Part shown: one piece after another, positions 1,925 through 43,468 of the stretch
Layout: the number at the start of each line of letters is the position of its first letter
Position numbering within the stretch: the first letter of the stretch is position 1
From: a virus
IMG/VR virus record: IMGVR_UViG_3300029258_004252
Span: 1-44,830 of that record
Strand: one strand, 5' to 3'
DNA length: 44,830 nt
The notes under the pieces: model-generated
Databases searched by the model: none
What the model was told of the DNA's origin: nothing
The model's input: only the letters and a program-made list of their open reading frames with translations
Position numbers and translations under genes: made by a program

Positions 1925-3481
1925 ATGCGTAATGGAGAAGAATTCGTAAAATTGATAGATATACCACATGCCGCTGAAGTAATAGCTGAAAGATTTGACA
2001 ATGCCCTGGAATTGATGGGCAACGATAGTGTGGTCTATGGTGGTGCTATAAGGGACTTAGTAGCAGGCATGCCTATTGCTGGAGACCTTGATATCGCTGT
2101 AAACCACTATGGATACCACGCTGTCCTTGGAGAATTCACAACTAGTTCTAAATGGACAAAGGTGGCTGTAGATGGCCGCCGGCCCAAAGCTGAGCCTAGG
2201 CCATTTGCAGACTCTGGCGGTAAAGGCGCTAGCCTCACCCTAAAAGCTTCGTATGGCAGCAGCAGAAATGACGACTACCGAAGGATTTCTCCTATATCAA
2301 ATGTAGTGACTTTCGAAACGTTCGATAAAGCCCGCGTTCAAATTATAAGGGTCAAAGCAGCGCCTAATAACATATCAGATCCGTTGGGAATTGTGCTCAG
2401 ACTTGCAAGGGAAGCTGACCTGCGCTGCTGCTCATTAGCTATGAACACCCTGGGCAAAATATTCGAACTGGTAGACGGAGCCTACGCAGACTGTATCAAA
2501 AGGGTCCTTAGAGTCAATGATATAAAAGATGAAAGCCGATTTGGAAAAATAGAGGAGAGAATAGAGAAGCTGGAGAATCGAGGCTGGAAGTCTGAAATTA
2601 ATATTACAAAAGTCAAAGCAAAGATAAAAAGAATGCAGCTTGAAAGGGCTAAAAGAGAAAAAGAGTTCTTTGACAAAATGAGGCTGAATCGCAAGAAATC
2701 TAGGAAGAAGCACAACATAGACAGATATGTAGGGATAGCTCCTGCCCCTGGCGGTAAAGTGGAAATAGTAGTAAGCAGAGAACTCGGGCCGAAAATGGGT
2801 ATGAACGTATCTGAAGCGGTTAATAAATTTGCAAAGATGCACTACTTGGATATTACGGAAGTTGGCAGAAATGCCAGGACTATGAAATACTGTGTTCCTG
2901 ATAAACAAATTGCAGATCATGTCAAGAAGTACCTTGAAGGCAAACTTGAAGATAGGCCTGCAAAGAAGCGCTTAAAGAGTCCTGCTGAAGCTGGCTGGAA
3001 AGAATACAATATTGAAGTAAAGTCTGTAGACCTGGCAGATATAGAAACTGCAGTAGTCGATGCTCCCACAGACGAGCAATCTGTTGATGATCAGCCTGTA
3101 GAACATAGCCGAGAATATATAACAAGACCGGCCACAGCTGATCCAGTTGCAACTGATGGAGACTTCGACGGAGATCGCGAATCCGTGGAACAGGATCGGC
3201 CTGAAAGTTCTGATTCACCTAGAACTTACCGCAATGCAGAGGTGCCAAGTGATTACTACATAAATTACGGAAGAGTGGAAGAACGCGCAAAAGCAACTAG
3301 CACTAAAGCAGCGGTATCTGAGATGGAGCGTATGAGCAGGAAGTTTTCAAAGACAATAGGAAAATCGAAGGGCGAAGCTGCAACATTTTTCGCAGAAGCT
3401 TTTCCTACCATAAAGCCAAAGACCGTCGGCTTAAAACCCCAAAGAAGAACTAAGAGAAAGAATAGAGGAGGTAGGAGATAA
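1925..3481 (+). CDS. Nucleotidyltransferase with CCA/poly(A)-polymerase-type head and long charged tail
   Basis: 518 residues. The N-terminal VVYGGAIRDLVAGMP...GDLDIAV (residues 36-58) has the GG, R-D and D-x-D (Asp54, Asp56) pattern of the class II CCA-adding/poly(A) polymerase head, so it probably transfers nucleotides from NTPs. Unlike the other such enzyme here (26,651-28,060), it has no HD domain. Residues about 200-260 are a Lys/Arg/Glu-rich coiled-coil candidate. Residues 350-518 are acidic and low-complexity, then end in a strongly basic tail (KPQRRTKRKNRGG). The substrate is not known; an RNA 3' end or a small molecule are both possible. GGGGTGAAAG lies upstream of the ATG, and the stop overlaps the next start by one base. 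Confidence 0.6.
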   Translation: MRNGEEFVKLIDIPHAAEVIAERFDNALELMGNDSVVYGGAIRDLVAGMPIAGDLDIAVNHYGYHAVLGEFTTSSKWTKVAVDGRRPKAEPRPFADSGGKGASLTLKASYGSSRNDDYRRISPISNVVTFETFDKARVQIIRVKAAPNNISDPLGIVLRLAREADLRCCSLAMNTLGKIFELVDGAYADCIKRVLRVNDIKDESRFGKIEERIEKLENRGWKSEINITKVKAKIKRMQLERAKREKEFFDKMRLNRKKSRKKHNIDRYVGIAPAPGGKVEIVVSRELGPKMGMNVSEAVNKFAKMHYLDITEVGRNARTMKYCVPDKQIADHVKKYLEGKLEDRPAKKRLKSPAEAGWKEYNIEVKSVDLADIETAVVDAPTDEQSVDDQPVEHSREYITRPATADPVATDGDFDGDRESVEQDRPESSDSPRTYRNAEVPSDYYINYGRVEERAKATSTKAAVSEMERMSRKFSKTIGKSKGEAATFFAEAFPTIKPKTVGLKPQRRTKRKNRGGRR

Positions 3482-7686: not shown

Positions 7687-10600
7687 ATGGACTGTGATCC
7701 GTTGGAGAATGAGGAGAAGTTCGAATTTCTATTTGACAGCGTAAAAAGACAATTTTACGCCAGAACGGAGGTGGAAGGAAGAAAAACTAAGCAAGACTTC
7801 GGAATCAGCTTGGAAACGAAGATCGAAAACAAAATGATGTGGATGACTTTCATAAAGAACAAAGAGAGACATTCGATCACAATACCCGTCCCATACACCG
7901 AGAACAACGTAGTCCTTATAAAGAACAATGATGTCAAAAGAGCCGTCTGCCCGTATTATATGAGAGCAGACGAGAGAGTGGTAGATTATCCTACCGCAAT
8001 GTATATGATTATGTGTGAGGACCCTACAGGTATAATCCCCCCGCAGCTTGTAAAAGGTACCCCATTTCTGCAAAGAGTTATAAATTCATTCCAATATGGC
8101 AATACAGCTATTATATGCTACAGTCTTCAGAGAGCTATAAATGAGGTAGTGAATAGAATGCCTCTCCATGAGACAGATCTTAATAGTTGGGTAATGAATC
8201 GTAGGTTGATAATTATCGACCCGCTCTTTGATGAACTGCAAAATCCAGCCAGCCAACTTGACTACCAGATAGAGAAGAATAGAGCTTATTTTAACAAAGG
8301 CTGGACTTCGATAGGCTTGTCTGATGGTACCTTAGCTACCAGAAATTACATTCTCACCGAAGATGTAAGGAAGCTCACGCCGTTTGGGTTGCGGTATCAT
8401 AATCCGGGAAGGAACCTGTTCTCCACGCTTGGGACGAAGGGCGAGGAAGATCCGTTAATAAGGTCCGAATCGATGCAAGCGTTAATGGATAGCGGAGTGA
8501 AGAGAAAAGGTTGGAACCTGTTCACTTTGTTCGCAGACACGCCAGATGTTTTCGAAGATCAGATCCTTGTTGATAGAAGCCACCTCAACAAATTCACAAG
8601 GTACGAGCGTCGCATTCAGTGCTTTGGTGATATATGTGTGAAGAAAGGCGATCACGTAGCAAGAGGGCAAAAATTGTCCGTTGCTCCTGATGGTACAGCT
8701 AAATACTTCGACACAATCGCCGATGACGCTAAGATTATCTCCGTGAACGAAAGCATAGCTAATGTAGGAGGCATAGAAGAAAAGGTCTATAATCTGACTA
8801 TAGAATTTACTCGCAAATTCACAGATGGCACCAAATTTACCAATTTACACGGTAATAAGGGTGTTGTAAGATTTATGGACCTTGGCCATGCAGTAGATCC
8901 CAGAGATGGAAGTTTGAGGAAGATTGATGTTATTTCCGCATGCAAATCTGTTAAAAAGAGGAAGAATTTCGGACAGATTCTTGAAGCATTGTGTAATAAT
9001 ATCACTGGCGAAAAGGGCATAGTTCTCCCTGATAAATATGAATGTCCTGACGCGCTGTTGGAAGAAGCCCTTGAGAAGAAAGGTTTCCCCAAAGATGGCT
9101 GCTGGAAATGCAACACATACGTCGGTGAGTTGACTGGTATATGTGGAGTGGTGTTCTGGGGTGTAATATCTCAGCCTCACGGAGCCTTGTGGGATCGGGG
9201 AGCCACCACTAAGAAGAATGGAAGAGAACTCCGAGTTGCCGGCTTGAAATTTTCAACAGTGGAATTCAGAGCTATCCAAACTCGGTTCGGTAAAGATAAC
9301 CCTGTACTCGACGAGATTATGTCGTACGCCCAGGGGACCGAAGATTTGCATGACAAGCTCAACATTCTACGCTCGAAGCGCGGAGAAAAGGCACCGGGCA
9401 AGTTTGCTGTAAAACTTGAAGATCTGAAACCTGTAACTCAGACGTCAAGTACTATTCTTGATCCAAAGGAAGTGGTAGGTACAGTGGTGGATGAAATGGT
9501 TTATCCGAATGGCTTTATGCTGAAGATACCTGTTCCATTCCAAACTGTGGTAAATAACAGGTTGCAGACCGTCTGCGAAGGCTTTCCAAGAGAAGTAAGC
9601 CCGCAAGAATTTATATCTGACAGTGGGCCCGGTATAACTGAAGGTGCCGTCTATCTAACCGATCATATTTATATCCCATGCGCAAATCTAAGAAAATGCT
9701 GGCGACATGACACAGGCAAACTTGGATTAAGCGAGATTGGGGTATTGGTGAACAACATAGTGCTGCATGGACATAGGTTAATACTTAGACCCCAGGATAC
9801 ATGTAATTATTCCCTGTATCTAAAGGCCATCTCCGAGTATTACAGACGTGTAGCTGAAATGATGGGCACTAAAAGAGGCGACGTAAGCACGTATGGTATG
9901 GCTGTGAGATATCCATATTCTGTCAAAGCGTACGCAACTCTTACTAATGCCATACCTAAGAATACAGTCGAAATTCACAGGGACATGGCTGCAGCGCTCA
10001 GAGTGACCAATGGTGACATTGTTCTGGTAGAAAGATTTCCATGTCTTGGGTTCATGTCCGTTAGACCGCAGAAAATAAGGATAACCGAAGACCCGCTGTG
10101 TAAATATACCATTAGAGTCAGCGGTAATAGCTTAGTATCTATGGGCTTAGATCACGATGGTGATACTATTTACATAGCCTCTTTCCATACACCAGAAGCT
10201 AAGAAAGCATTGAAGAAGGAGTGGACAAATCCTAACAAGTCTTGCTATGATGTAATCAGACTCCTGAACAGGAAAGCTGGAGTTCCTCATACAAAATGCA
10301 TGACTTTGCAGGACTACCATATCCATCCATTCCCAGATCTGGACATTGAAACACACTCCGAACTCGTAAAGCGGGCGACTGGTGTGAAAAGCCATACTGG
10401 ACCAGTGATAGCTCTGGCATACAATATTATGAGATTGGTGGAGAATTCTGACGTGGCTAATGATCAGAAAACAGCCGTCGCTATCGAAGTATTCCTTGAT
10501 AAAACTGGAAACTCAGTGTTCAAGCAGAAACACGGCGTTAAATCTCTCCATGACATAGTAATAGATGCTATCTGCTCCGGCGATGTTGATACTTTAGCAG

Positions 10601-11091
10601 ATAATGGGTTTAAAAGGAGCACCTCAACCATAATCTGCAATGTGATCGCTAAAAAGGCAAAGGAGCTTGGAGTCCACGATTTAAGGAGCTACCACGAATG
10701 GGCTAAGCAAAATGGTGCCAGCAGTATAGTGAATCGCATTGTAAGAGAGCAGAATAAGATTTATTTTGCAAGCAGGGCTCAGCTTACGACTTGTGCTTTA
10801 TTACACCATTTGGAACAGCCATCCGTAGATATTCCAAGCAAAATGTTCCGGTGGGTTACATCAGGGGCTGCAAATAGCATAAAGACGCCTCTCGATGAAA
10901 ACATGCAGAAGGCGGGCTTATTTAAACTTCATACAGATAAATACAGAAGTGCTGCCGAAATGCTGCAGAATGCAATTGACGGCGCTTTGATTAAAACCAT
11001 ACAACCGCCTACAGTATTGCGAGAAAAAGCCCTTGCATGGCGCAAGGAAGTGACAGAGCGAAGAAAAGTTTGGGAAAAGGAGGTCTGGTAG
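7687..11091 (+). CDS. Single-chain two-barrel DNA-dependent RNA polymerase (YonO / crAss-phage type)
   Basis: 1,134 residues. AAGGAGG at 7676-7682 selects ATG 7687 over the in-frame GTG at 7642. One chain carries landmarks of both bacterial subunits in order. Beta-like: GWNLFTLFADTPDVFEDQIL (compare GYNFEDAI), a CVKKGDHVARGQKL flap-like segment, and NLHGNKGVV with His388 in the first double-psi barrel. Beta-prime-like: YGMAVRYPYSVKA, then VLVERFPCLGFMSVRP (compare NRAPTLHR), then GLDHDGDTIYI with Asp822, Asp824 and Asp826, the catalytic Mg-binding triad of the second barrel. This arrangement is known from phage SPbeta YonO, crAss-like phages and eukaryotic RNA-dependent polymerases. It should transcribe phage genes; whether it uses the sigma-like factor at 25.8 kb is unknown. 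Confidence 0.88.
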   Translation: MDCDPLENEEKFEFLFDSVKRQFYARTEVEGRKTKQDFGISLETKIENKMMWMTFIKNKERHSITIPVPYTENNVVLIKNNDVKRAVCPYYMRADERVVDYPTAMYMIMCEDPTGIIPPQLVKGTPFLQRVINSFQYGNTAIICYSLQRAINEVVNRMPLHETDLNSWVMNRRLIIIDPLFDELQNPASQLDYQIEKNRAYFNKGWTSIGLSDGTLATRNYILTEDVRKLTPFGLRYHNPGRNLFSTLGTKGEEDPLIRSESMQALMDSGVKRKGWNLFTLFADTPDVFEDQILVDRSHLNKFTRYERRIQCFGDICVKKGDHVARGQKLSVAPDGTAKYFDTIADDAKIISVNESIANVGGIEEKVYNLTIEFTRKFTDGTKFTNLHGNKGVVRFMDLGHAVDPRDGSLRKIDVISACKSVKKRKNFGQILEALCNNITGEKGIVLPDKYECPDALLEEALEKKGFPKDGCWKCNTYVGELTGICGVVFWGVISQPHGALWDRGATTKKNGRELRVAGLKFSTVEFRAIQTRFGKDNPVLDEIMSYAQGTEDLHDKLNILRSKRGEKAPGKFAVKLEDLKPVTQTSSTILDPKEVVGTVVDEMVYPNGFMLKIPVPFQTVVNNRLQTVCEGFPREVSPQEFISDSGPGITEGAVYLTDHIYIPCANLRKCWRHDTGKLGLSEIGVLVNNIVLHGHRLILRPQDTCNYSLYLKAISEYYRRVAEMMGTKRGDVSTYGMAVRYPYSVKAYATLTNAIPKNTVEIHRDMAAALRVTNGDIVLVERFPCLGFMSVRPQKIRITEDPLCKYTIRVSGNSLVSMGLDHDGDTIYIASFHTPEAKKALKKEWTNPNKSCYDVIRLLNRKAGVPHTKCMTLQDYHIHPFPDLDIETHSELVKRATGVKSHTGPVIALAYNIMRLVENSDVANDQKTAVAIEVFLDKTGNSVFKQKHGVKSLHDIVIDAICSGDVDTLADNGFKRSTSTIICNVIAKKAKELGVHDLRSYHEWAKQNGASSIVNRIVREQNKIYFASRAQLTTCALLHHLEQPSVDIPSKMFRWVTSGAANSIKTPLDENMQKAGLFKLHTDKYRSAAEMLQNAIDGALIKTIQPPTVLREKALAWRKEVTERRKVWEKEVW

Positions 11092-11688: not shown

Positions 11689-12036
11689 ATGGCAGAAATT
11701 AAAGGTATCACAGAAAATGAATGTAATTTCCAGGGAAGAGTGGTGGAAGACCCAAGTTTTTTCCCAATCGACGGTGGTGAAGGTGCTTTCTTTAGAGTAG
11801 CTACTTTTGTACCTGCCCAAGGTGCAAACAACCAATGGGTGGATCAGAAGAAGATTGTTCCTATCATAAACATGAACGCCGCTAAAACAAATTCCGTTAT
11901 CAAGAAATACGTTAAAGCCGGTAAAGAAGTCAAAGTCCGCTGCTACTACGATACGTGGGAGCAGGATGGCCAGGAAGAAAGTGGTCTCATTATGACCATG
12001 TTGAAACTGGGCGGTGGCACCTATACTGGAAATTAA
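11689..12036 (+). CDS. Single-stranded-DNA-binding-like protein (OB fold)
   Basis: 115 residues with AAAAGGAG upstream. The pattern ECNFQGRVVEDPSFF...FFRVATFVPA...KKIVPIINMNA...VKKYVKAGKEVKVRCYYDTWEQ...LIMTMLKLGG follows the strand order of bacterial SSB OB folds (an F-x-G-R-V strand, a long internal loop, and V-x-x-Y-V-K-K-G before strand 4). It is shorter than typical SSBs and lacks the acidic C-terminal tail that recruits partners. It probably coats ssDNA during phage replication; it has its own promoter, which fits a need for high expression. Confidence 0.65.
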   Translation: MAEIKGITENECNFQGRVVEDPSFFPIDGGEGAFFRVATFVPAQGANNQWVDQKKIVPIINMNAAKTNSVIKKYVKAGKEVKVRCYYDTWEQDGQEESGLIMTMLKLGGGTYTGN

Positions 12037-12583: not shown

Positions 12584-13126
12584 ATGGCAAAGAATAAAAA
12601 GAGGAAGAGGAAAAAGAAATTCTATAGCAAAAAAGAATTTGTGAACATCTTCTGCTCGAAATGTGGTTTGTGCGAAGGTGATCCCACCTTTTGCTATCAT
12701 AGAATTTATAAAATTGCTCCAAAACTCTTCATAAATGAGATTCACAAAGCTATATTAGAGGTGAGAGAATGGAATGAGATAGGCGGCGTGGATTGGGGCA
12801 TGGCTCCTGGCCATTTCAGATATGCTGTGTGTCATAAACTCGCAGAACATTGCCAGGGTGACAAAGATTGTGCTATTACCTGCGAACACTTTGAAACCTG
12901 CTTTAGAGAATTCGAAGACCAAATTAAAGGTCTTGGCGGCGCAAAACTATCAAAGCGTCGCCTCAAGAAAAAGAAGAAGAAAAAAGCTAAACAGAAATTT
13001 ATAGTGAAGGCATATCCAACGGCCTTCATGAACAACGATGAAAATTGGAAGAAGGTAATAGAGAGGATACTATCGGATGGAGATAATAATCGAGAACAAA
13101 ATAAGGCTGAAACAGGCTCCGTCTGA
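12584..13126 (+). CDS. Hypothetical Cys/His-rich basic protein (180 aa)
   Basis: Not recognised. It has a basic start (KNKKRKRKKK), a Cys cluster FCSKCGLCEGDPTFCYH, a second cluster AVCHKLAEHCQGDKDCAITCEHFETC, and a poly-Lys stretch around residues 125-137. The clusters suggest one or two zinc sites. The 3' end overlaps the following helicase gene by 50 bases. It is possibly a nucleic-acid-binding partner of that helicase. Confidence 0.55.
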   Translation: MAKNKKRKRKKKFYSKKEFVNIFCSKCGLCEGDPTFCYHRIYKIAPKLFINEIHKAILEVREWNEIGGVDWGMAPGHFRYAVCHKLAEHCQGDKDCAITCEHFETCFREFEDQIKGLGGAKLSKRRLKKKKKKKAKQKFIVKAYPTAFMNNDENWKKVIERILSDGDNNREQNKAETGSV

Positions 13127-14486
13127 ACTAAAAGATAGGTTAATATCTGAATTAAAAATTGCAAACCCCAAACATGCAGAGGCTGTCAGAGCTGGTAGAA
13201 GCACTTGGAACGTCAATCCATTTATATATAACTTCGACATATTACCAGATGACAGCTTAAGGATACCAAGAGGATACTTACGCAATCTTGAAGCCGCAAT
13301 GGTAGATATGGGAGTGGAAGGCAGGATTACTGACAATAGGCCCATAATCGAGCCAAATTACAACATTGGATCAGGGAGGATAAGATATAGACCTTACCAA
13401 TATGACGCTGTAATGGAGCTGACGAATTTTGAGGAAGGCGTTCTTGTAGCTCCAGCAGGTAGCGGTAAAACGGTTATAGGTATCAGCTTAGTGCCTCTGT
13501 ACGGCCTACCGACTCTCTGGTTGACACATACTGATGCTTTAGCAAGACAAGCTGTAGACAGGATAAACTTCTTTCTACCTTCCCTTGAAGAAGAGGATAT
13601 TGGGTTAATAGGCCGTGGCAAATGGAAAGTTGGAAGGATGTTCACCGTTGCTATGGTCCAGACACTAGTCCGCAGATTAAAAGCAATCCACAAAATAAAG
13701 AATGAGTTTGGTCTAATAATACTTGACGAAGCTCACCATTGTCCTGCTTCAACTTTCATGAAAGTCGTAGGACACTTCAATCCATGTCGCCTTTACGGCC
13801 TAACAGCTACTCCCTATAGAAGGGACAAACTGCAAGATTTAATGTTCCAGACGATTGGACCAGTGGTAGTGCGGATTCCAATTGAGGAAGTGGAGAAATA
13901 TGGGGGTGTTATGAGACCCACTGTAAAATATAGAGCCTTCTCTCATTATAGACCTGTGGATATGTCTAACACAGCTAAGATAATGACAGATTTCATAATG
14001 CACAATGACAAAAGAAATCACATGGTAGTAAGTGATGTTCTGGATGAAGCTACACAAGGTAATATATGTATAGTATTATCAAACAGAAAGGCTCACTGCG
14101 AAGTCTTGTATGATCTGCTTTCCATAGGCTGGGATAAAACAGGCATAGCCACCGGCAATTATACTAAGAAATATGTGGACGAACAGATAGATAGGCTAAA
14201 TAGTGGTGAAATAACCGTATTAGTTTGTACCGACCAGTTGTTAGGAGAAGGTTTTGACTATGCTCCTTTAAACAGAGCCTTCCTTGCAGCACCGTTCCGA
14301 GCAGAAGCGAAATGTGAGCAGATCATAGGTAGAATACAGCGTCCAGCTCCTGGAAAAAAAGATGCTATAGTATATGATTATGTAGATACTAATATAGGTG
14401 TTATACAGAATCAATTCTATAGTAAGTATGGGGCTTGTAGATACGCTGCCTATGAGCGTCTTGGAGTGAACATTGAACCGTATTAA
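13077..14486 (+). CDS. DEAH-box superfamily 2 helicase
   Basis: 469 residues. Motif I is VAPAGSGKT (Lys131), motif II is LIILDEAHH (Asp217-Glu218), motif III is LTATP, and motif VI is EQIIGRIQRP (near residue 433). The layout resembles the XPB/RadD/UvsW-type group of DNA helicases: a short N-terminal domain followed by two RecA-like domains. GAGAGGA nine bases before the ATG supports this start, inside the previous gene. A role in replication, branch remodelling or repair is likely; the exact substrate cannot be read from the sequence. Confidence 0.85.
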   Translation: MEIIIENKIRLKQAPSELKDRLISELKIANPKHAEAVRAGRSTWNVNPFIYNFDILPDDSLRIPRGYLRNLEAAMVDMGVEGRITDNRPIIEPNYNIGSGRIRYRPYQYDAVMELTNFEEGVLVAPAGSGKTVIGISLVPLYGLPTLWLTHTDALARQAVDRINFFLPSLEEEDIGLIGRGKWKVGRMFTVAMVQTLVRRLKAIHKIKNEFGLIILDEAHHCPASTFMKVVGHFNPCRLYGLTATPYRRDKLQDLMFQTIGPVVVRIPIEEVEKYGGVMRPTVKYRAFSHYRPVDMSNTAKIMTDFIMHNDKRNHMVVSDVLDEATQGNICIVLSNRKAHCEVLYDLLSIGWDKTGIATGNYTKKYVDEQIDRLNSGEITVLVCTDQLLGEGFDYAPLNRAFLAAPFRAEAKCEQIIGRIQRPAPGKKDAIVYDYVDTNIGVIQNQFYSKYGACRYAAYERLGVNIEPY

Positions 14487-14497: not shown

Positions 14498-15718
14498 ATG
14501 GATATACCGTTAACAGTGTCTGAAATGATGGATAAGCGAAACAACGATAAACTATCGGAGAGACGCCTTATAAGGATGCCTGAAGATTTCAGGAATCTTT
14601 ATATGATAGAACTGCACGATTATATTTCTATTCGTGCTACTGACAACAAGAACACAATAGTTCTAAAAGTTGCTCCTGCCTATAAAGAAGATGTTGAGAA
14701 TGATTCCTTGTCAGCATATGTAACAACGGAAGCGTTCGAAATGTCCAATGTAAAGGGGATAAAGACATCGAAGAGGAGTCAAGATGTCGAATTAGTCCAA
14801 GGTATAACCTTAGGCTGCGATCCTGAAGCATTTCTGGTAGATCCGCGTGATAACATAATTCCGGCGAATTTATTCTTCCGCAAATATGCAAATGTAGGAT
14901 ACGATGGTTTAATGATAGAGTTTAGGCCAATGCCAAGCCTTAGCGAGAGAACCGTAGCAGAAAATTTAATGAAACTAATAACCAGCGCCAGGCACAAACT
15001 GGACAAAGCTCACAACAGATCCCTAGCATATAGAGGTATACCTGCTGGGAAGTACATCAAACTATTGGCCGCTTCTTCACACAAAAACACAGCTGCCGGA
15101 TTTCATTTACATTTTGGTTTGCCGGGTCAATTATTGGGCAACCATTTACATACCAGGAAGATGTTGGCAGGACAGATGGTGAAGGCTTTGGATTTTTACG
15201 TTGGTATTCCGGCAATCATTCCCGAAGGGATAACGGATCATTTCCGAAGGACTTTTGTAACAAGTCAGTATGGGAAGCCAGGTAATTATATACTTGACAA
15301 CAGAACATTGGAATACAGAGTTCCAGGTGGGTCATTGTTGAGACACCCAGTATTGACAGAAGGTATCTTGGGTCTTGGAGCAGTTGTTATTGAAGATATC
15401 GTGAGTAGGGTCAAAACCATCACAAACAATTACGTACTGCTTGAAAGTATGTTGCCAGATGAGAGCCTAAAAGCAGTATACCCCCATCTACCGACAGCAG
15501 CAGATATTTATAAAGCAATAGTAAATCCCAACACTGCATTCGCAGAGTCTAAACTGGACACTATCATCTCAGATGTGAGGCAAATGATAGGTTATGAATC
15601 AAGAAAAAGCTCAGTCGAGAATTTTTTTAAGTTCATAAGACACAGCTTCAGTAATGACATAAACTACAATTGGAGGAAGTATTATGAGGGACAATCGAGG
15701 CCGGTGGACATGTATTAG
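14498..15718 (+). CDS. phiEco32-type COOH-NH2 ligase (amidoligase)
   Basis: 406 residues. LGCDPEAFLVD (residues 105-115) is the first acidic motif, IEFRPMPS the second, GFHLHFGLPG (His203, His205) the HxH motif and LEYRVPGGSLLRHP the late arginine motif. These are the expected metal, ATP and carboxylate contacts of the glutamine-synthetase/GCS-like fold. The reaction should be ATP-dependent formation of an amide or peptide-like bond. The gene overlaps the next, unrelated-looking amidoligase by 35 bases, so the two are likely made together. Confidence 0.8.
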   Translation: MDIPLTVSEMMDKRNNDKLSERRLIRMPEDFRNLYMIELHDYISIRATDNKNTIVLKVAPAYKEDVENDSLSAYVTTEAFEMSNVKGIKTSKRSQDVELVQGITLGCDPEAFLVDPRDNIIPANLFFRKYANVGYDGLMIEFRPMPSLSERTVAENLMKLITSARHKLDKAHNRSLAYRGIPAGKYIKLLAASSHKNTAAGFHLHFGLPGQLLGNHLHTRKMLAGQMVKALDFYVGIPAIIPEGITDHFRRTFVTSQYGKPGNYILDNRTLEYRVPGGSLLRHPVLTEGILGLGAVVIEDIVSRVKTITNNYVLLESMLPDESLKAVYPHLPTAADIYKAIVNPNTAFAESKLDTIISDVRQMIGYESRKSSVENFFKFIRHSFSNDINYNWRKYYEGQSRPVDMY

Positions 15719-21117: not shown

Positions 21118-22479
21118 ATGGCCCGACAAAAATTGATTCTGGTAGCTTCTGAAAGCATGGACAGCAATAAGAAGCCAGATAGAGATGAAAATTCACTAGT
21201 TAGAATGTCGTCCATAGTTAGAAAAAATATGAACTTTAACGAAGATAGCGTCGAGTTATGTCCGGCCGGCGCTTCGTCTGAGAATCAAGCTATCAGAGCT
21301 AGGATGTTGAAAATATTCAAGGCATTCTCAGCTGACATAAAAATGGCAAAGAAGATGGTCGATGCAGGTGAGCTGACTAAAGCAGAATTGAAACGCGTTG
21401 GTTTCGTCACTACAAAGACGCTTAATGCTATAAACGGTGGGGGAGGACGTAAGAAGAACAAAAATATATGGGTGTCTAACTCGATAAAGAATACTGTTCT
21501 GGGCTCAGATCCCGAATTCCTTTTGTTCGACAGAGAAACTGAAAATGTCATAAGAGCTTATAATGTTCTGCAAACTGCAGGTCCACTTGGCAGTGATGGC
21601 GCTATGGCAGAGGTTAGGCCAACCCCATCTACCTCAACAGAAGGTATTGTGTCTAACATTAAAAAGATATTTAAAAATGACAAATCTGTTAAATACATAG
21701 AACAATATAAATGGATGTCAGCATGTTACCACAGAGATAATTCTAGAGATTATCCTGTTGGCGGACATATACATATCGGAACTCCGGCGAAGATAGCTAA
21801 TTTGAACAAGAAAACCAAAGAGGCTTTCTTTATTGTACTGAATAAAATCTTAGACGAGTTGCTGGCTATACCATTAACAAAACTAGATGGTGCGGAGAAT
21901 GGGCACAGAAGAAGAGCTAATTGCCAAGTATGTCCGACTGGACACCATGGTTATGGGTTCTTTGGTGAGATGAGAATGCCACACGGCCGTCTTGAACATA
22001 GAACTTTAAGTGGTATGTGGTTGGTGCATCCATCAGTTGCAAAAGCCGTCTTCGGTACTACTAAAGCTATAGTTGACGAAGTTTTCAAACTTGTCTCTAG
22101 CAAAAACTTTAACTCTAAATACATGTGCCTTTATGCGAAAGACAATGAATCTGGAGATGATTACAGAATCATTAAGCATATGTTCAAACCCAATTTCGAC
22201 GGTTGGAAAAATGTACCCCTCGCAAAAGAAGTAGAGTGTATTAAATCTTCAAGCGAGATGATAAAAATATTAAATGATTCTAATCCATCGTATGTTAGTT
22301 CCGCTTACTTGAAAAAGTGGCTTTCGAGAATGAAAAATTTCTCAACCTACAAGAACAATGGTAAATACGTTAGGGGTTTATACGAAATTTTGAGTATCTC
22401 TGCTAAAGATCTGCAAAGTTGGGATAGGGAGATCCAAAGAAATTGGTTGGGAAATAAAAAATTCATGGTGGATTTATAA
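21118..22479 (+). CDS. phiEco32-type COOH-NH2 ligase, second complete paralogue
   Basis: 453 residues. LGSDPEFLLFD (Gly129, Asp131, Glu133), MAEVRPTPS, YPVGGHIHIG (His217, His219) and GRLEHRTLSGMWLVHPSV give the full amidoligase motif set. It differs from the 14,498 gene in having an N-terminal helical domain of about 125 residues. TGHHGYGFFGEMRMPHG adds several conserved-looking His residues near the active site. It starts two bases after the glutaminase stop, which supports a functional couple: the glutaminase gives ammonia, the ligase forms the amide. Confidence 0.8.
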   Translation: MARQKLILVASESMDSNKKPDRDENSLVRMSSIVRKNMNFNEDSVELCPAGASSENQAIRARMLKIFKAFSADIKMAKKMVDAGELTKAELKRVGFVTTKTLNAINGGGGRKKNKNIWVSNSIKNTVLGSDPEFLLFDRETENVIRAYNVLQTAGPLGSDGAMAEVRPTPSTSTEGIVSNIKKIFKNDKSVKYIEQYKWMSACYHRDNSRDYPVGGHIHIGTPAKIANLNKKTKEAFFIVLNKILDELLAIPLTKLDGAENGHRRRANCQVCPTGHHGYGFFGEMRMPHGRLEHRTLSGMWLVHPSVAKAVFGTTKAIVDEVFKLVSSKNFNSKYMCLYAKDNESGDDYRIIKHMFKPNFDGWKNVPLAKEVECIKSSSEMIKILNDSNPSYVSSAYLKKWLSRMKNFSTYKNNGKYVRGLYEILSISAKDLQSWDREIQRNWLGNKKFMVDL

Positions 22480-22532
22480 AGATGAATATTTTCAAAAAAA
22501 TATGCAAAAAAATCAAAGGAGGACTTGACAAA

Positions 22533-23612
22533 ATGGGAAAAGATGTTTATGTTTACTATAGTGGCCCGACAGATACGACTGGTAAGAATATCGCTGAAGC
22601 CTTAAAGGCTAGCCATGGTAAGAAGAAACCAGCAACGTCGAAGAAACTTACTGTAATCTGCTGGGGGTGTAAGACCAAGGAGAAGACAAACATGGGTAAT
22701 CATGTTGTCCTCAATCACCCGGACAATATTAAAAATAACCGGAATAAGTTCAAAACGCTGCAAACTCTTAATAAGGCAAATGTCAATGTCGCTCCGTTTA
22801 TAGAAGCCGGTAAAGTTATAGCGGCCATAGATAGCACAAGTTCTCCTATCAAATTACCTCTGATCGGGCGGACAAACTATCACCAAGGCGGCAAAGGACT
22901 TTGGACGTGCCTTACGAAGACTATGGTGCAAGCAGCTATCAACGAAGGTGCCCAGTACTTCCAGAATTTTATGGATGTAAAAACTGAATACAGACTTCAT
23001 GTATTTCAGGGCGGTATCATCAATGCTCAGAAGAAAGTTCCTCGGAAGAATATGGAAGGAGCCTTCGTCGAGCAATATGGCGACAGAATTAAGCACAATG
23101 CTGAAAAAGCTGGCAAGAAGATTGACGAAGCAACGATGCAGCTGGTGCTTTCGGACGTCGGGAAGAGGACTTTGGCAAATCCTGATCAAATTGTCAAGTC
23201 TAATACCAGGGGCTGGAAGTTCTCCCAGGTTAAAACTGTACCTGCTGCTCTTGAGAAAATAGCGATCGACGCTGTTAAAGCTATAGGATTAGACTTCGGC
23301 GCTGTAGATTGTTGCATCCTGAGTAATAATGATGCCGCCATTATCGAAGTAAATACTGGACCAGGTTTGTCAGGTTCGTCATTTGATGCTTACATTGCAG
23401 CTTTCAAAGAGTTTCTTAAACCCAAGAAAACTGTCAGTGCCGCATCTAAACCGAAGACTGCGGCTGCCGGTGCAAGTGCTGCACCTTCTGCTGGCGGGAA
23501 GAAGAAAGTCGATCCTAACGCTCTAAGAAACATAGCTGACATGCTAGAGCACGCAGATGATTCAGAAACCGAAGCTATTAACAGTGTAATCAGCAAGATG
23601 TTCGGTAGTTAA
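22533..23612 (+). CDS. ATP-grasp ligase, phage amidoligase-associated
   Basis: AAAGGAGG at 22515-22522 favours ATG 22533 (359 aa); ATG 22482 is in frame and also possible (376 aa). The N-terminus has a small zinc-finger-like segment (CWGCKTK...NHVVLNH). The ATP-grasp core shows LQTLNKANVNVAPF, FMDVKTEYRLHVFQGG, GLDFGAVDCC (Asp254) and AAIIEVNTGPGLSG (Glu272, Asn274), the metal-binding end of the RimK/D-Ala-D-Ala ligase-like fold. Such enzymes activate a carboxylate as acyl phosphate for attack by an amine. The tail is Ala/Lys rich. A related protein is at 30,484-31,278. Confidence 0.78.
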   Translation: MGKDVYVYYSGPTDTTGKNIAEALKASHGKKKPATSKKLTVICWGCKTKEKTNMGNHVVLNHPDNIKNNRNKFKTLQTLNKANVNVAPFIEAGKVIAAIDSTSSPIKLPLIGRTNYHQGGKGLWTCLTKTMVQAAINEGAQYFQNFMDVKTEYRLHVFQGGIINAQKKVPRKNMEGAFVEQYGDRIKHNAEKAGKKIDEATMQLVLSDVGKRTLANPDQIVKSNTRGWKFSQVKTVPAALEKIAIDAVKAIGLDFGAVDCCILSNNDAAIIEVNTGPGLSGSSFDAYIAAFKEFLKPKKTVSAASKPKTAAAGASAAPSAGGKKKVDPNALRNIADMLEHADDSETEAINSVISKMFGS

Positions 23613-24782: not shown

Positions 24783-25772
24783 ATGAAAGATTTAATAGGC
24801 CATGAAAATACAAAGAAGCAGCTGCGCATAGCTGCTAAGTCAGCGAATAAGCTGAATAAGTCTATGGATCATATGTTGTTCGCAGGCGTAGCAGGTTGTG
24901 GCAAGACCAGTATGGCCAGATACGTCGCATACCATGGCGATTCAGACTTTCTGCAGGTGCCTCCAACAGACTTTAAAGATTACAAAAGCGTCGTGGATAT
25001 ATTGGAAAGGCTGAGCATTAAAGGTTATGACAAAAGAGGCAATAGAGTCGGTAAGATAAAACCCACAGTATTATTTGTGGATGAGATACATAGGATGCCT
25101 ATATCAGGCGAGGAGCCTCTTGGCGTAGCTATGGAAGATTACAAAATTCCAATTGGCAAAAGTGGCCAGGTATGCTGGGTTCCCTATTTCACTCTGATAG
25201 GCGCAACAACCGACGACGGAAGTTTGTCTAAGCCTTTTAGGGAAAGATTTGGACTGAGGTTCGTGTTCAATACTTATTCTGAAAAAGAAATTATTAGGAT
25301 TATTGAGCTCAACATTCCCAATATGAACATAGCTGCAACCCAAAAAGCTATAAGGATAATAGCAAAAAGGAGTCGCGGCGTGCCAAGGATAGCTAAGGGC
25401 TACCTTAAAAACGTTCGAGATAGGGTTATAAGCCTGGATACAAATATTATGAGTTCTCAAATGGTTAAAGATACCTTTGACGAGCTTGGGATTGATAAAG
25501 AAGGCTTCAATAAAACAGAAATTAAAATATTGAAAACTTTACACAAGGCTAAAAGACCCCTTGGCCTTGATAATCTGTCAGTTGTGGCAAATGAATCACC
25601 CAAAGCTCTACAAGCTTCTGCTGAGCCATATTTAATAAGGAAAGGGTATATGGCCAGAAGCGGTAGAGGGAGGGTGATAACAGAAGCTGGCTCAAAATAC
25701 TTATCTTCGTCAGGGTATATATCTGGCGACAGGGACAAAGTTGATATACCTGCTGATTACATTAGAAGATAA
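24783..25772 (+). CDS. ruvB: RuvB-like Holliday-junction branch-migration ATPase
   Basis: 329 residues, close to cellular RuvB (about 335). Walker A is GVAGCGKTS (Lys41), Walker B is VLFVDEIH (Asp100-Glu101), sensor 1 is TLIGATTDDGSLSKPFRERFG, and the winged-helix end shows AEPYLIRKGYMARSGRGR, all hallmarks of RuvB. No RuvA or RuvC is seen in the window; a different resolvase-like nuclease is at 44.2-44.6 kb. It may drive branch migration in phage recombination-dependent replication, with host RuvA or an unknown partner. Confidence 0.85.
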   Translation: MKDLIGHENTKKQLRIAAKSANKLNKSMDHMLFAGVAGCGKTSMARYVAYHGDSDFLQVPPTDFKDYKSVVDILERLSIKGYDKRGNRVGKIKPTVLFVDEIHRMPISGEEPLGVAMEDYKIPIGKSGQVCWVPYFTLIGATTDDGSLSKPFRERFGLRFVFNTYSEKEIIRIIELNIPNMNIAATQKAIRIIAKRSRGVPRIAKGYLKNVRDRVISLDTNIMSSQMVKDTFDELGIDKEGFNKTEIKILKTLHKAKRPLGLDNLSVVANESPKALQASAEPYLIRKGYMARSGRGRVITEAGSKYLSSSGYISGDRDKVDIPADYIRR

Positions 25773-25823: not shown

Positions 25824-26648
25824 ATGGGCAAAGGTAAATTTAAATATGATGTTGTAAAGGGAAGCTCTGTAGGAGCATACGAGGAGTTACCGAAGTATTT
25901 TCTGGCAGATACGCCAGAAGAGGCAGAAGAACTTTATAAGGATTACTATACCCTTCTAAACAACCTGTCATATACCTATTCCATTTCAACTAAAATTGAT
26001 AAAAGCGATTTGTTTGGCGAAGCTTTAATTGGTCTTGCAAGGGCGAATAGAGATTTTGATTCCAAAAGGAGTGAAAATTTCAAAACTTTCGCCATTTATA
26101 AGATAAAAGGTGCGCTCAACGAATATGTGAGAAAGAATTCAGGAGCCGTTGTTATGCCAGCATACGTGAGAAGTGCCAACAGACATATAACATCATTGAA
26201 AGACATCTTTGAGATGTATAATCTAGAGCTTAAGCACTTGTACAAGGCATTCGAAATTGGAGAAATAGATATGTCTTGGGCCAACGACTGTCCGCTGAAA
26301 GACAAAATACTTGATTTATTCAACAAAGTAGTGAAGGCCGCTGAGAGAGCTCAGATAACAATGAAGGAGCTGGTGTCAAGAGCAGAATATGCTCCAGTAA
26401 ATGTTAGGTACGATGATTATGCTGACGCTGACGAAATAGTACAGCAAAAAGAACATCGCCTTGAAATGGCACTCACTATAGAAAAATTCAAAAAACACCT
26501 TACTCCCGTGGAAATTTCCATCTGTGAAGGAATAATGGAAGACAGGAGTTATGAAGAAATAGCCAAACAGTTTAATCGAACTGCTCCTTGGATCAATTAC
26601 AAACTGTCAAAAATGAAGGAGAAACTGGAAGAACAAATAGGGAGATAA
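25824..26648 (+). CDS. Sigma-70-family sigma factor, phage-encoded
   Basis: 274 residues from ATG 25824 (TTG 25821 adds one). A weak GAGG sits three bases upstream; a strong AAGGAGGT lies 23 bases upstream and is oddly far. DKSDLFGEALIGLARANRDFD...FKTFAIYKIKGALNEYVRK (residues 59-104) is sigma region 2. LTPVEISICEGIMEDRSYEEIAKQFNRTAPWINYKLSKMKEKL (from about residue 224), here split only for description, is the region 4 helix-turn-helix. Region 1.1 is absent. It could redirect the host polymerase, or serve the phage's own two-barrel polymerase. The end leaves two bases before the next start. Confidence 0.78.
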   Translation: MGKGKFKYDVVKGSSVGAYEELPKYFLADTPEEAEELYKDYYTLLNNLSYTYSISTKIDKSDLFGEALIGLARANRDFDSKRSENFKTFAIYKIKGALNEYVRKNSGAVVMPAYVRSANRHITSLKDIFEMYNLELKHLYKAFEIGEIDMSWANDCPLKDKILDLFNKVVKAAERAQITMKELVSRAEYAPVNVRYDDYADADEIVQQKEHRLEMALTIEKFKKHLTPVEISICEGIMEDRSYEEIAKQFNRTAPWINYKLSKMKEKLEEQIGR

Positions 26649-26650
26649 AA

Positions 26651-28060
26651 TTGAACACTATTAAAGTATTACAACGACTCGACAAAGAGCCGTCAGTCAA
26701 CGTGTACTTAGTGGGTGGATTTGTAAGAGATTTTCTCCGTGGGGAGAAGAATGATGATCTCGACGTGGTGGTAAAAGGAATGACCATCAAAAAGTTAAAA
26801 GCTTTCTTATCAAAATACGGTAAGGTTAAGCTTGTAGAGTTGTCAAAAGTAAAAGACAGCTTTGCCGTAAAAATTTTGCTATTTAGCGCTAGCAATGATG
26901 ATCTGGTAGCGCAGATCAAGTTACCTAGCAGAGGCAAAAAGCAAATACAAGATCCTAACAATACACTCAGACAAGACGCGGCTCATAGAGACTTTACAAT
27001 CAACGCTATGTACCTTCCCGTTAATGCAAAAGAACGGGATGAAATAATAGATTTCCATGGCGGCAAAACGGATATAGGTGCAAAATGCATAAGAGCTGTG
27101 GGTGAACCTATAGAAAGAATGCAGGAACATCCTATTAGACTCTTACGTGCAATTTCACTGGCAGCTAGAACTGGCTTTACAATAAATGAAAATGTTCTGT
27201 TTGCCATAAAGCATTGTGCACATTTGTTAAAGAATGTGCATGTTGACTCAATAAGAAAGGAGTTTAACCATATATTATTATGTGATAAGCCTTCGAAGTA
27301 TCTGAAGCTAATGCATATATTAGACTTGCTAGATATAATGCTGCCAGAGTTAACTAATTGTATTAACGTTACTCAGGAGAAAAAACACCACAAATGGGAT
27401 GTATTTCACCATTGTGTTTATACTTGCGACCATGTAGATTGTGAGTTGAATCTGAGACTTGCCGGCCTTCTACATGACGTTGGCAAACCAGATACAAGAA
27501 AGGTTATCAAGGGAAAAGGTATTACATTCCACAAACATGAGATGGTAGGTGCTAAGATAGCAAAGAAAGCTTTAACGAGACTTGGCTATGATAATAATAC
27601 GAAAAATCAAATAACCAAGCTGGTAAGGCTACATATGTACCACTACACTCATGAATATAGCGATAATGCTATAAGAAGATTTATAGCTAAAGCAGGTATC
27701 ACTGAAAAAGACTTGGATGACATAAGCAACTTTCCTTTGTTCAAGTTAAGAGCTGGCGAGCGACTAGGTAATGGCTTTAAGAAAGTACCAGTCACTGCGC
27801 GCCAGGAGGACTTTGAGAAACGCATTGTTAAAGTCTACAAGGAGACTACAGCCTTCGGAGTCAACGATTTGGTCCTGAAGGGTAAAGATATAATGGAGAT
27901 CTTCGAGTTGAAGCAGTCTCCTTTAGTCGGTAGAGTCAAGAAACATCTGTTGTCTAAAGTTTTATCGGACCAAAAACTAAATAATCGAGTTGACTTGATA
28001 AAACTTGCCGCAACATATATAAACAAATATAAAAAATTTAACAAAAACAAGAAAAAATAA
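26651..28060 (+). CDS. cca: CCA-adding enzyme / tRNA nucleotidyltransferase with HD domain
   Basis: 469 residues from TTG 26651, chosen because GGAG at 26641-26644 is six bases upstream; an in-frame ATG at 26588 lies inside the sigma gene. The head has YLVGGFVRDFLRGEKNDDLDV (GG 22-23, R26-D27, Asp36 and Asp38), then RRDFT-like AHRDFTINAMY and the neck GEPIERMQEHPIRLLRAISLAA. The C-terminal part holds LAGLLHDVGKPDT (His275-Asp276) and FHKHEMVGAKIAKKAL, a metal-dependent HD phosphohydrolase. It should build or repair tRNA 3' CCA ends. The phage tRNA-Leu downstream lacks an encoded CCA, which gives the enzyme an obvious substrate. Confidence 0.85.
   Translation: MNTIKVLQRLDKEPSVNVYLVGGFVRDFLRGEKNDDLDVVVKGMTIKKLKAFLSKYGKVKLVELSKVKDSFAVKILLFSASNDDLVAQIKLPSRGKKQIQDPNNTLRQDAAHRDFTINAMYLPVNAKERDEIIDFHGGKTDIGAKCIRAVGEPIERMQEHPIRLLRAISLAARTGFTINENVLFAIKHCAHLLKNVHVDSIRKEFNHILLCDKPSKYLKLMHILDLLDIMLPELTNCINVTQEKKHHKWDVFHHCVYTCDHVDCELNLRLAGLLHDVGKPDTRKVIKGKGITFHKHEMVGAKIAKKALTRLGYDNNTKNQITKLVRLHMYHYTHEYSDNAIRRFIAKAGITEKDLDDISNFPLFKLRAGERLGNGFKKVPVTARQEDFEKRIVKVYKETTAFGVNDLVLKGKDIMEIFELKQSPLVGRVKKHLLSKVLSDQKLNNRVDLIKLAATYINKYKKFNKNKKK
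27995..28023 (+). promoter_or_regulatory. Sigma-70-type promoter in front of the large structured RNA
   Basis: TTGATA at 27995-28000, a 17-base spacer, and TATAAA at 28018-28023. Each box has one mismatch and the spacing is ideal. It lies inside the last codons of the CCA enzyme gene and would start transcription near 28030, just before the non-coding region. Confidence 0.5.
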
Positions 28061-30101: not shown

Positions 30102-30521
30102 ATGAGTGATGTTTTAGATGACGCATACGATGAAGGCTATGAAGATGGCCTAATTGATGCTGAAGGTATCGAGGAGAGCGAAGTACATGATATGACAGAA
30201 GAAGAAGCCTTCAGTACATATGAATTAGCTTTTGCTTTAGGTTTGGGTGAAGAAATAGGTTTAGAGGAAGCTGATAGAATTAGGGCTGAAGCGGAAATGA
30301 GAGTTAACGAAAGAGGTCCTGAGCCAACAAGCGAGCCTATTTCTATAAAGGAAGCTAAAGCCAGAGGTAAAAGCAAACTAAGTTCAGTGGCCAATAAACC
30401 AAAGTGTCCATTCGAACAATGGATTAAAGATGTCTGTGCTGGTAAGAAAAGCATATACGATCCTATAGGTGGAGAAAATAGTTATGGCAAAGAAGACGAC
30501 TACGACCTCTTCTCCATGTAA
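30102..30521 (+). CDS. Hypothetical acidic protein (139 aa)
   Basis: AGGAG precedes the ATG. The first 80 residues are very acidic (DDAYDEGYEDGLIDAEG...), the middle is basic and the end acidic again. No known motif. The gene overlaps the following ATP-grasp gene by 38 bases and may be its partner, or a DNA-mimic-like protein; both ideas are inference. Confidence 0.55.
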   Translation: MSDVLDDAYDEGYEDGLIDAEGIEESEVHDMTEEEAFSTYELAFALGLGEEIGLEEADRIRAEAEMRVNERGPEPTSEPISIKEAKARGKSKLSSVANKPKCPFEQWIKDVCAGKKSIYDPIGGENSYGKEDDYDLFSM

Positions 30522-31278
30522 TGTAAGAATAATAGGGAGAAAAGGTAGCAAAACTTGCAAGATAATTGTTGAGGAAGCTGGGATCGGTAGGTATACAGGT
30601 AAGAAAAACAGAGCAGACTTCTTAGTTAACTTTGGCTTGGCCGGTAAAAAGATGGAAGCTTTCTTAAAAAGATTTCCATCGGCAAGACGTATCCCCACAA
30701 TAAACCGTCACTGTGGCTATTCAAAGCTTAATGTCGTAAATAGAGCTAAGAACAACAACATCATGGTTCCGGAGAGTAGACTAACCCTCCCTAGAGAAGT
30801 TAAAAAAGGGGATTGGATTGAAAAAAGATTCAGCTCCATAGGCGGTAAAGGCATCCGGCAAGCCAGGGGGAAAGGTAAATTACAGGGTAAATATTACCAG
30901 AAGTTCGTCGCAAACAGGCATTACGAGCTAAGGGTTCACACTTTCCTATGGATGGATGACTGCCGAGTCCAGAAAAGGATTGGAGATCCCAAAGAGATCA
31001 CTTGGAATTACAAAACAGGCGGTCATTTCGTAACTGTCCATAACCCCAACTCATATAATGTCTTCAAAGAGGCTATGGATGTCTCCAGAAAAGTCTTGGA
31101 GATGTTAGGTATGGCTTTTGGGGCTGTGGATTTTATAGTCACAAAAGATTACGATTTATACTTCCTTGAGGTAAACTCCGCTCCTGGAGTCTCGGGATTG
31201 AGTGATCAAATATACATTGAAGCTTTCAGAAAGCTCAAATCCTTACCAAGGAAAGAACTAACGAAGTATGCCAAATAA
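30484..31278 (+). CDS. Second ATP-grasp ligase-like protein
   Basis: 264 residues from ATG 30484 (GGAG nine bases upstream). It has a nucleotide-binding segment WIEKRFSSIGGKGIRQARG (glycine-rich loop), YYQKFVANRHYELRVHTFLW, MAFGAVDFIVT and LYFLEVNSAPGVSG (Glu229, Asn231), the same signature ends as the ligase at 22,533. The ATP-grasp part of the N-terminal domain is short. It should activate a carboxylate with ATP. It lies away from the main amidoligase cluster, next to an RlaP-like nucleotidyltransferase. Confidence 0.72.
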   Translation: MAKKTTTTSSPCNVRIIGRKGSKTCKIIVEEAGIGRYTGKKNRADFLVNFGLAGKKMEAFLKRFPSARRIPTINRHCGYSKLNVVNRAKNNNIMVPESRLTLPREVKKGDWIEKRFSSIGGKGIRQARGKGKLQGKYYQKFVANRHYELRVHTFLWMDDCRVQKRIGDPKEITWNYKTGGHFVTVHNPNSYNVFKEAMDVSRKVLEMLGMAFGAVDFIVTKDYDLYFLEVNSAPGVSGLSDQIYIEAFRKLKSLPRKELTKYAK

Positions 31279-32881: not shown

Positions 32882-33445
32882 ATGTCAGATATTTTACTTA
32901 TAGTTGACATGTTAAACGACTTCGCCCACGAAGACGGCGCTCTGTTCTTCCCAAGAGCCAAAGAAATTATTCCTCACATACAAGAGCGTTTAAAAGAATA
33001 TAGAATGAGGAGAATATTATACAAAGGTCTGGATAAATACAACGTCGTCTACGCATGTGATAGACATGAACCTCATGACAAAGAATTTGAGAGATTCCCG
33101 AAACATGCTATTGCTAACACATGGGGCGCTAGGGTTGTAGATGAGCTTGCACCTATTAATCCACTCGTGGAGGAGAAGATAGTGGATAAAACAAGGTTCG
33201 ATGCTTTCTTTGGCACCCCGTTAGCTGCCATATTAGAACAGCTGAGACCGCCGGTAGTTGAAGTAGTTGGTGTATGTACTTCCATATGTATCATGGATAC
33301 TGTAGCCGGCCTAGTTGCTAGAGATTACAAGGTCCACGTACCCGAACACTGCGTTGCAGACCTTGATAATGATGCTCACGAATACGCCCTGAATAGAATG
33401 GAGGGAATATATGGGGCAATAGTTTACACACCCCACAACATGTAA
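32882..33445 (+). CDS. pncA: Nicotinamidase (isochorismatase-like hydrolase)
   Basis: 187 residues. LIVDMLNDFAHEDGAL (Asp9), VDKTRFDAFFGTPL (Lys103) and GVCTSICIMDT (Cys136) give the Asp-Lys-Cys triad; CDRHEPHD (Asp60, His62) is the metal site. Isochorismatase-family members vary, but the neighbours pncB and nadE make nicotinamide the likely substrate: nicotinamide to nicotinate plus ammonia. The length fits bacterial PncA. The stop is 11 bases before the next gene. Confidence 0.82.
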   Translation: MSDILLIVDMLNDFAHEDGALFFPRAKEIIPHIQERLKEYRMRRILYKGLDKYNVVYACDRHEPHDKEFERFPKHAIANTWGARVVDELAPINPLVEEKIVDKTRFDAFFGTPLAAILEQLRPPVVEVVGVCTSICIMDTVAGLVARDYKVHVPEHCVADLDNDAHEYALNRMEGIYGAIVYTPHNM

Positions 33446-33456
33446 CAGGAGGCGTA

Positions 33457-39198: not shown

Positions 39199-39385
39199 AC
39201 CCCCTGATATAGCATTAGTAAATTTAGTAAAAGTGGACGCTACCAAATGTGAATTAGAGGGCCCTTATGAATGTCCTCATTGCGGATTTCATATGATGTT
39301 GGATTCTACTTACTTAGATCAAGTAGAACTTGAAGTAGTATGTCCTTCCTGCAGAGAAATTGTGAAAGCTCCCGAAGAAGCCTAA
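39182..39385 (+). CDS. Small zinc-ribbon protein (67 aa)
   Basis: YECPHCGF and VVCPSCRE are two C-x2-C knuckles 25 residues apart, a classical zinc ribbon. It overlaps the previous gene by 17 bases and has AAAGGAAAG upstream. It is the last plus-strand gene before the terminator. It could bind nucleic acid; nothing more specific can be seen. Confidence 0.65.
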   Translation: MFTPIEPPDIALVNLVKVDATKCELEGPYECPHCGFHMMLDSTYLDQVELEVVCPSCREIVKAPEEA

Positions 39386-39390
39386 AACAC

Positions 39391-39606: not shown

Positions 39607-39639
39607 TCTCTTCGTTGGATAGAGCAACAATCTGCTAAA

Positions 39640-43465: not shown

Positions 43466-43468
43466 TTT

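Follow-up and report, generated by a model that had tools for sequence, protein, structure and literature searches.

A predicted single-chain RNA polymerase of cellular type, encoded in one gene block with a sigma-70-family factor in a lineage of jumbo phages

The virus record IMGVR_UViG_3300029258_004252 is a linear sequence of 44,830 bp, possibly a fragment, from a large bacterial virus that only environmental DNA has revealed, and its entire length is referred to here as the window. One of its genes encodes a protein of 1,134 amino acids (aa), which is probably a compact DNA-dependent RNA polymerase (RNAP), with condensed beta and beta-prime halves in one chain, acting as the non-virion enzyme of a jumbo phage. 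In the proposed enzyme, residues 1 to about 550 would form a condensed beta half and residues from about 560 to 1060 a condensed beta-prime half, both of the cellular multisubunit type and joined in a single polypeptide. The residues K383 and K391 of one barrel (barrel B) and D822, D824 and D826 of the other (barrel A) would form a two-barrel active site at the interface, and the enzyme would transcribe phage DNA. Single-chain phage RNAPs are already known, and the interest here lies in a cell-like compactness and a testable question about sigma. The experimentally studied enzymes, YonO, crAss gp66, and P23-45 gp64 and gp96, belong to a clade that has lost almost all sequence resemblance to cellular RNAP. 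The window family is equally compact, yet legibly cellular, and would show to what extent a machine of bacterial type can be reduced to a single chain.

The reading frame is uninterrupted from GTG at 7642 or ATG at 7687 to the stop at 11091. The beta and beta-prime parts lie in one open frame, as they do in every full-length member of the family. These relatives were found only via alignments, through a motif scan, then an alignment-based scan, which gave three relatives, and then family-alignment scans. Searched by tblastn against 50,697 phage records, the window RNAP gave no match at E 0.01, and used alone as a query in viral contigs and genome contigs it found no relatives, as was also the case for an 84-aa fragment. 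A COOH-NH2 ligase used as bait led to no related loci in viral contigs or phages, tblastn of phage records with two of the relatives, L071 and L073, yielded short partial matches only, and a scan for the DHDGD pattern returned two chance matches and two cell-like RNAPs. The full-length family now consists of the window protein and L069, L070, L071, L072, L073, L082, L110, L111, L112, L113, L114 and L118, with L083, on a 3.2-kb contig, as a partial member. Full-length members are carried by 13 records: the window itself, eleven viral contigs of 70-298 kb, and a contig of 39 kb that was binned in a Candidatus Stahlbacteria metagenome-assembled genome, a bin that makes for a weak host assignment. 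The near-copies L110 and L111 are carried by G019 and G020, and the contig of L082 is G025:C350. The alignment used below, A5, has 13 rows and holds the whole family except L111; its members are 37-53% identical to the window RNAP. The family may already figure in the family alignments or the two-RNAP virus survey of PMC10770324.

The original prediction, made from the letters of the window, placed HGNKG and DHDGD in one 1,134-aa chain with recognisable motifs nearby. Both motifs are confirmed, at 388-392 and 822-826, and the neighbours are present as FED (289-291), KRKNFGQILE (from 424) and VERFPCL (781-787). The FED triplet we take to be the equivalent of NFEDAI in beta. From amino-acid composition, the chance expectation is 4.5e-4 for HGNKG, 0.017 for DxDGD and about 8e-6 for a chain that contains both. 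Elsewhere in the window, DFDGD occurs by chance in forward frame 2, inside an unrelated open reading frame (ORF) at 1925-3481, and there is one further HGNKG in forward frame 3. Because each motif alone occurs by chance in the window, single motifs are insufficient, and conservation is the stronger evidence. K383, N390, K391, G392, E290, D291, R425, N427 and Q430 are invariant in all 13 rows. Similarly, D822, D824, G825 and D826, together with R783-FPCLGFM, are kept in each of the 12 rows that extend there, in keeping with the three aspartates that had been singled out. His388, stressed in the original prediction, is not universal: HGNKG reads SANKG in L110 and L111 and AANKG in L113 and L118, the same four members in which FED reads WED. 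With HG replaced in four members, the lysines and not the histidine are the conserved candidates.

Structure prediction bears on the two double-psi beta-barrels (DPBBs) that had been claimed. Two AlphaFold2 models were made. Model 1 was built from 8 sequences (predicted local distance difference test, pLDDT, 59; predicted template modelling score, pTM, 0.39), while model 2, from 13 sequences (pLDDT 81.4, pTM 0.75), replaces it for the beta half. The aspartate triad lies in a single barrel, A, and in model 1 residues 744-833 fit the designed DPBB 7dww with Z 11.4 and 2.0 Å over 83 aligned residues. Barrel B, with the paired basic residues K383 and K391 in 13/13 rows, falls inside the alignment of the beta half on RPB2. 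In that alignment (VIA-align, model 2), residues 1-549 superpose on residues 39-1172 of RPB2 of African swine fever virus (ASFV) with Z 23.2 and 4.6 Å over 509 aligned residues, and archaeal, bacterial and eukaryotic beta or RPB2 chains give Z 19-22 among the 50 matches listed. At E <= 1e-3, Foldseek with model 2 matched 1,001 PDB chains, of which the 50 listed are all RNAP beta or RPB2; no QDE-1, crAss or P23-45 chain is named among the 50 rows of the structure lists. Residues 1-549 are thus modelled as a condensed RNAP beta subunit, with essentially the whole beta lobe. A beta-rich insert at 303-377, with predicted strands at 303-312, 329-332, 338-340, 347-360 and 363-377, occupies what would be the place of the beta flap or wall. 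It contains a GDxVxxGQxL-like stretch, which may correspond to the sandwich-barrel hybrid motif of the flap. According to PMC7824862, the flap insert is present in cellular and killer-plasmid enzymes and missing from YonO and RNA-dependent RNA polymerases.

For the beta-prime half we rely on model 1, because the VIA list of model 2 is filled by beta chains. Here, residues 562-1022 align on RPB1 with Z of about 11 and a root-mean-square deviation of about 8 Å. By profile, this half is collinear with residues 240-473 of E. coli beta-prime (score 29.6, E 0.025, probability 1.9), and a reversed control scored 15.9. By our own naming of the elements, that alignment presumably spans the clamp helices, a switch-2-like stretch, RxPxL and DxDGD. 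Downstream of barrel A there is a conserved KxGxS element (939-943), which together with a long helix at 887-919 may represent the bridge helix and trigger region, to judge from the model and conservation.

Sequence profiles place both halves with cellular enzymes. At E <= 0.01, the Pfam domain Rpb2_6 is found in 13/13 rows of A5 and Rpb1_2 in 12/13, and a profile built from four members reaches beta chains in the PDB at E 3e-5. Compared by hhalign, the profile of A5 gives a probability of 90.7 for E. coli rpoB and of 96.3-96.7 for other cell-like viral chains. The best reading is that the window enzyme is a single-chain derivative of the multisubunit clade. With cellular multisubunit RNAP it shares both barrels, FED, the paired lysines, GQILE, RxPxL, DxDGD and the predicted beta lobe. 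It differs in that the cellular enzyme has two chains (1,342 and 1,407 aa in E. coli) against one of about 1,100 aa here, in which no trigger loop or jaw was identified.

The gene belongs to a block that runs from amidotransferase and ligase genes to the RNAP, a helicase, further ligases, GlmS-like proteins, RuvB, sigma and a CCA-adding enzyme, most parts of which are common to the relatives. The earlier description of the polymerase as standing among unrelated gene families is therefore only half right, since the block that holds it is conserved across relatives. A related 296-kb contig encodes terminase, portal, capsid, DNA polymerase, primase, a DnaB-like helicase, clamp and ribonucleotide reductase, and is a tailed jumbo phage. 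A non-virion role is proposed for the window RNAP because its gene lies in the non-structural block; it would serve genes expressed after infection has started.

The longer relatives contain a second, tape-measure-fused polymerase. A profile of five rows, which include L108 (G016) and L080 (G024), was run on 12 records, and a second two-barrel RNAP was found in giant frames in 4/4 records longer than 200 kb. Since the G016 and G024 chains are in the profile, their matches arise by construction; G017 and G023 provide independent ones. The profile also hit the window-family RNAP itself, weakly, three times in G018-G020 and once in G017, and these hits were excluded. The tail-tape domain PF10145 is shown in two of the giant frames, those of G016 and G024. 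In a viral structure library, the window RNAP is matched best by a protein from Siphoviridae sp. ctnpt50 labelled "minor tail protein" (TM-score over the query, 0.48), in line with the link to tape-measure proteins. The layout of phage P23-45, with one tape-measure RNAP and one free RNAP, thus occurs in jumbo-phage contigs. As described in PMC10770324, P23-45 has two two-barrel RNAPs, the non-virion gp64 and the virion gp96, the latter fused to the tape-measure protein. Both belong to the single-subunit clade, in a Thermus phage, whereas here the non-virion enzyme is cell-like, and the hosts of the pair are jumbo phages with a conserved sigma-70 gene. By analogy with P23-45, the long relatives would inject their tape-measure-fused RNAP together with the DNA, and this enzyme would transcribe the earliest genes. 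With probabilities of 96.8 and 94.7, the window-family profile matches the second-RNAP chains along some 400 columns, which at the sequence level is compatible with a common origin of both RNAPs, as the account in PMC10770324 proposes for the P23-45 pair. However, other cell-like viral chains match equally well, so these matches do not establish a duplication within the lineage.

A sigma-70-family gene accompanies the RNAP in 11/13 RNAP-bearing records (the contig of L083 left aside), on the same strand and 16.5-20.6 kb downstream of the RNAP start. The sigma of G023 is under the Pfam cut-off (13.4 bits), and was counted by its BLAST match to the window sigma (34% identity, E 1e-39). Sigma was not detected in the records of L113 and L118, where the block continues past RuvB without sigma or CCA enzyme. 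These two members form one clade (100/100), so that a single loss explains the missing sigma. It seems unusual for a single lineage to have both a two-barrel phage RNAP and a sigma. As far as the survey in PMC7824862 extends, no group-1 (multisubunit-RNAP) jumbo phage has a sigma. The enzymes mReC and those of the phiKZ/AR9 type are likewise cell-like phage RNAPs, but there the genes for beta and beta-prime are separate or split, as reported in PMC7481178 and PMC7824862.

Two uses of this sigma can be proposed. First, core and sigma may constitute a two-polypeptide holoenzyme, in which a cell-type core of about 1,100 aa, with flap and clamp-helix sites, is directed by its own sigma-70-family factor, beside the tape-measure-fused virion RNAP; this is a tentative and somewhat doubtful proposal. 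If true, a single-chain RNAP that depends on sigma would amount to a minimal holoenzyme of bacterial type, made of just two proteins, and a two-protein, promoter-specific bacterial-type transcription system would become testable. Second, the RNAP could find promoters unaided, and the sigma would serve the host RNAP in early or middle redirection, an explanation that falls a little short of an even chance and is compatible with a single-chain, cell-like RNAP. The L113/L118 pair, which keeps the RNAP with no detected sigma, speaks for it. So do the jumbo phages lacking an RNAP, which by the account of PMC7598289 usually encode sigma homologues that serve the host enzyme, and the moraphages, described in PMC12619734 as having sigma and no RNAP. 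Against host service, the sigma is retained at a fixed place in the block in most RNAP-bearing records, the surveyed group-1 phages do without one, and the usual docking sites of sigma, the flap-like and clamp-helix-like elements, appear to be retained in the RNAP.

Several points weigh against a complete single-chain enzyme with a non-virion role. The beta-prime half rests on the low-confidence model 1 (pLDDT 59) and a statistically weak profile alignment. On its own, the window protein reaches neither of the two Pfam cut-offs (21 bits against 23.4, and 18.4 against 25.3). The trigger loop was not identified in the chain, where PF04998, the C-terminal beta-prime domain, has no match. Additionally, a profile search found no second RNAP in the 44.8 kb of the window, and the division into virion and non-virion enzymes rests on analogy.

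The chain could also be the main subunit of a phage RNAP made of several chains, with C-terminal pieces of beta-prime encoded elsewhere, as in pGKL2 ORF6/ORF7 or the phiKZ type. We consider this unlikely, although only about 308 residues remain after DHDGD, with no trigger loop identified among them. Five viral contigs (L005, L006, L011, L037 and L042) encode chains of 1,501-1,558 aa that end about 100 residues past DYDGD; these hold beta and the first part of beta-prime, and the split point lies inside beta-prime. To our knowledge, pGKL2 ORF6 has no sigma neighbour. This protein of yeast linear plasmids, by its description in PMC6211774, resembles the window enzyme in combining beta and part of beta-prime in one compact multisubunit-type chain. 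It differs, according to the same source, as a eukaryotic cytoplasmic element whose small second subunit, ORF7, holds the C-terminal beta-prime regions, a subunit not found here. PF04998 was found in 0/6 records, two of them at 296-298 kb, while 14/14 control genomes were positive, so no cell-like second beta-prime chain was seen, with the limit that a very diverged piece could escape the search. Nor was any other RNAP-like gene noticed in the block.

The original prediction linked the protein to YonO and crAss-type polymerases, and this link is not supported. A single chain, both barrels and a phage origin are indeed shared with the YonO/QDE-1/crAss single-subunit clade, and there are very weak beta-prime-barrel matches to 8h2m and 8h2n, titled "Tape tail measure protein" (E 0.18-0.3). 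Membership of that clade is nevertheless most improbable, and it was rejected. By hhalign, the A5 profile has no match to crAss phi14:2 (probability 0.2) or to the 626-aa part of phi3T YonO (0.1), single-sequence comparisons of low sensitivity in which absence is not proof. The sequence matches in Pfam and PDB are to cellular-type large subunits, and the fold match covers the whole beta lobe. YonO of SPbeta-like phages is also a two-barrel single-chain phage RNAP, but most domains of multisubunit RNAPs are absent from it, as stated in PMC5467207. The phi14:2 RNAP (gp66 in PMC10770324, gp077 in KC821624), of the same general kind, has 2,180 aa, about twice the length, and is annotated as a virion protein. 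The suggestion of a distinct branch has fared better, and is supported. It is scarcely credible that this is a two-barrel enzyme with another task, replication priming or RNA copying: it does lie near replication and recombination genes (an SSB-like ORF, a helicase and a RuvB-like gene), but the related 296-kb phage has its own DnaG-type primase, DnaB-like helicase and DNA polymerase, and the closest profiles are transcription enzymes.

Table 1. Features of the polymerase, its neighbours in the window and the giant frames of longer relatives (model 1 and model 2, AlphaFold2 models; A5, family alignment; positions are those of the window unless a contig is named)
Feature	Position	Strand	Basis or remark
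Single-chain two-barrel RNA polymerase (predicted)	7687..11091	+	1,134 aa from ATG 7687; alternative GTG 7642 gives 1,149 aa
Beta-like half, residues 1-549	7687..9333	+	Model 2 against ASFV RPB2
FED, 289-291	8551..8559	+	E290 and D291 invariant in A5
Beta-rich insert 303-377, putative beta flap/wall place	8593..8817	+	Model 2 strands, RPB2 alignment position
K383 and HGNKG 388-392, beta-barrel active-site motif	8833..8862	+	Conservation, motif scan
KRKNFGQILE 424-433, counterpart of RMNIGQILE in beta	8956..8985	+	
Beta-prime-like half, about 562-1060	9370..10866	+	Model 1: VIA, 562-1022 on RPB1 20-1390
Helical hairpin 683-726 (putative clamp-helix equivalent) and switch-2-like 729-750	9733..9936	+	Model 2; weak profile alignment
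Double-psi barrel A, 744-833, with RFPCL 783-787	9916..10185	+	Model 1; Pfam Rpb1_2
DHDGD 822-826, predicted Mg-binding triad	10150..10164	+	Conservation, motif scan
Long helix 887-919 and KTGNSVF 939-945, candidate bridge-helix region	10345..10521	+	Model 2, conservation
Conserved small ORF after the RNAP, single-stranded DNA-binding protein (SSB)-like by eye	11689..12036	+	No Pfam match
Superfamily-2 helicase (XPB/RadD-like)	13077..14486	+	Conserved neighbour
RuvB-like AAA ATPase	24783..25772	+	Adjoins sigma in the block
Sigma-70-family factor	25824..26648	+	ATG 25824 (TTG 25821); TIGR02937 9e-16, above cut-off; PF04542 1.2e-10
CCA-adding nucleotidyltransferase-like gene	26588..28060	+	Conserved sigma neighbour
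Giant frame, 4,651 aa, G016	G016:C1:250760-264712	-	Profile match; PF10145
Locus in the giant frame of 4,562 aa, G017	G017:C1:169716-171296	-	Profile match
Locus in the giant frame of 3,325 aa, G023, near contig end	G023:C1:2200-5970	-	Profile match
Locus in the giant frame of 7,488 aa, G024 (L080/L118 contig)	G024:C1:187090-190587	-	Profile match; PF10145

Other polymerases came to light among the viral contigs. At roughly 2,040-2,110 aa, seven of them (L049, L050, L055, L062, L066, L067 and L068) look like full-length beta-beta-prime fusions and contain HGNKG, DFDGD and either FED or YED. On a 210-kb contig, the frame L031 (1410-6089) is a cell-like RNAP that by eye contains an intein- or homing-endonuclease-like stretch just before GNK.

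Around the RNAP, the window carries COOH-NH2 ligase and ATP-grasp/RimK-like genes at 182-754, 14498-15718, 21118-22479, 22482-23612 and 30469-31278, with amidotransferases alongside, possibly a conserved cassette for peptide or amide modification. Further downstream, at 32882-34662 and 36865-37728, there are isochorismatase/nicotinamidase-like, nicotinate phosphoribosyltransferase and NAD synthase genes, a salvage set for nicotinamide adenine dinucleotide (NAD) that could counter NAD-depleting defences. Near 38-39 kb, the strand, the GC skew and the GC content (from 0.41 to 0.34) change, and lysozyme, caspase-like and Lon-like genes occupy the minus strand in the stretch from 39000 to 44830, whose last ORF has a 43% match in G016. 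An unassigned protein of 633 aa, encoded at 34675-36576, has 29% matches in Synechococcus phages S-CRM01 and S-CBWM1 and in the gut phage Phass-1.

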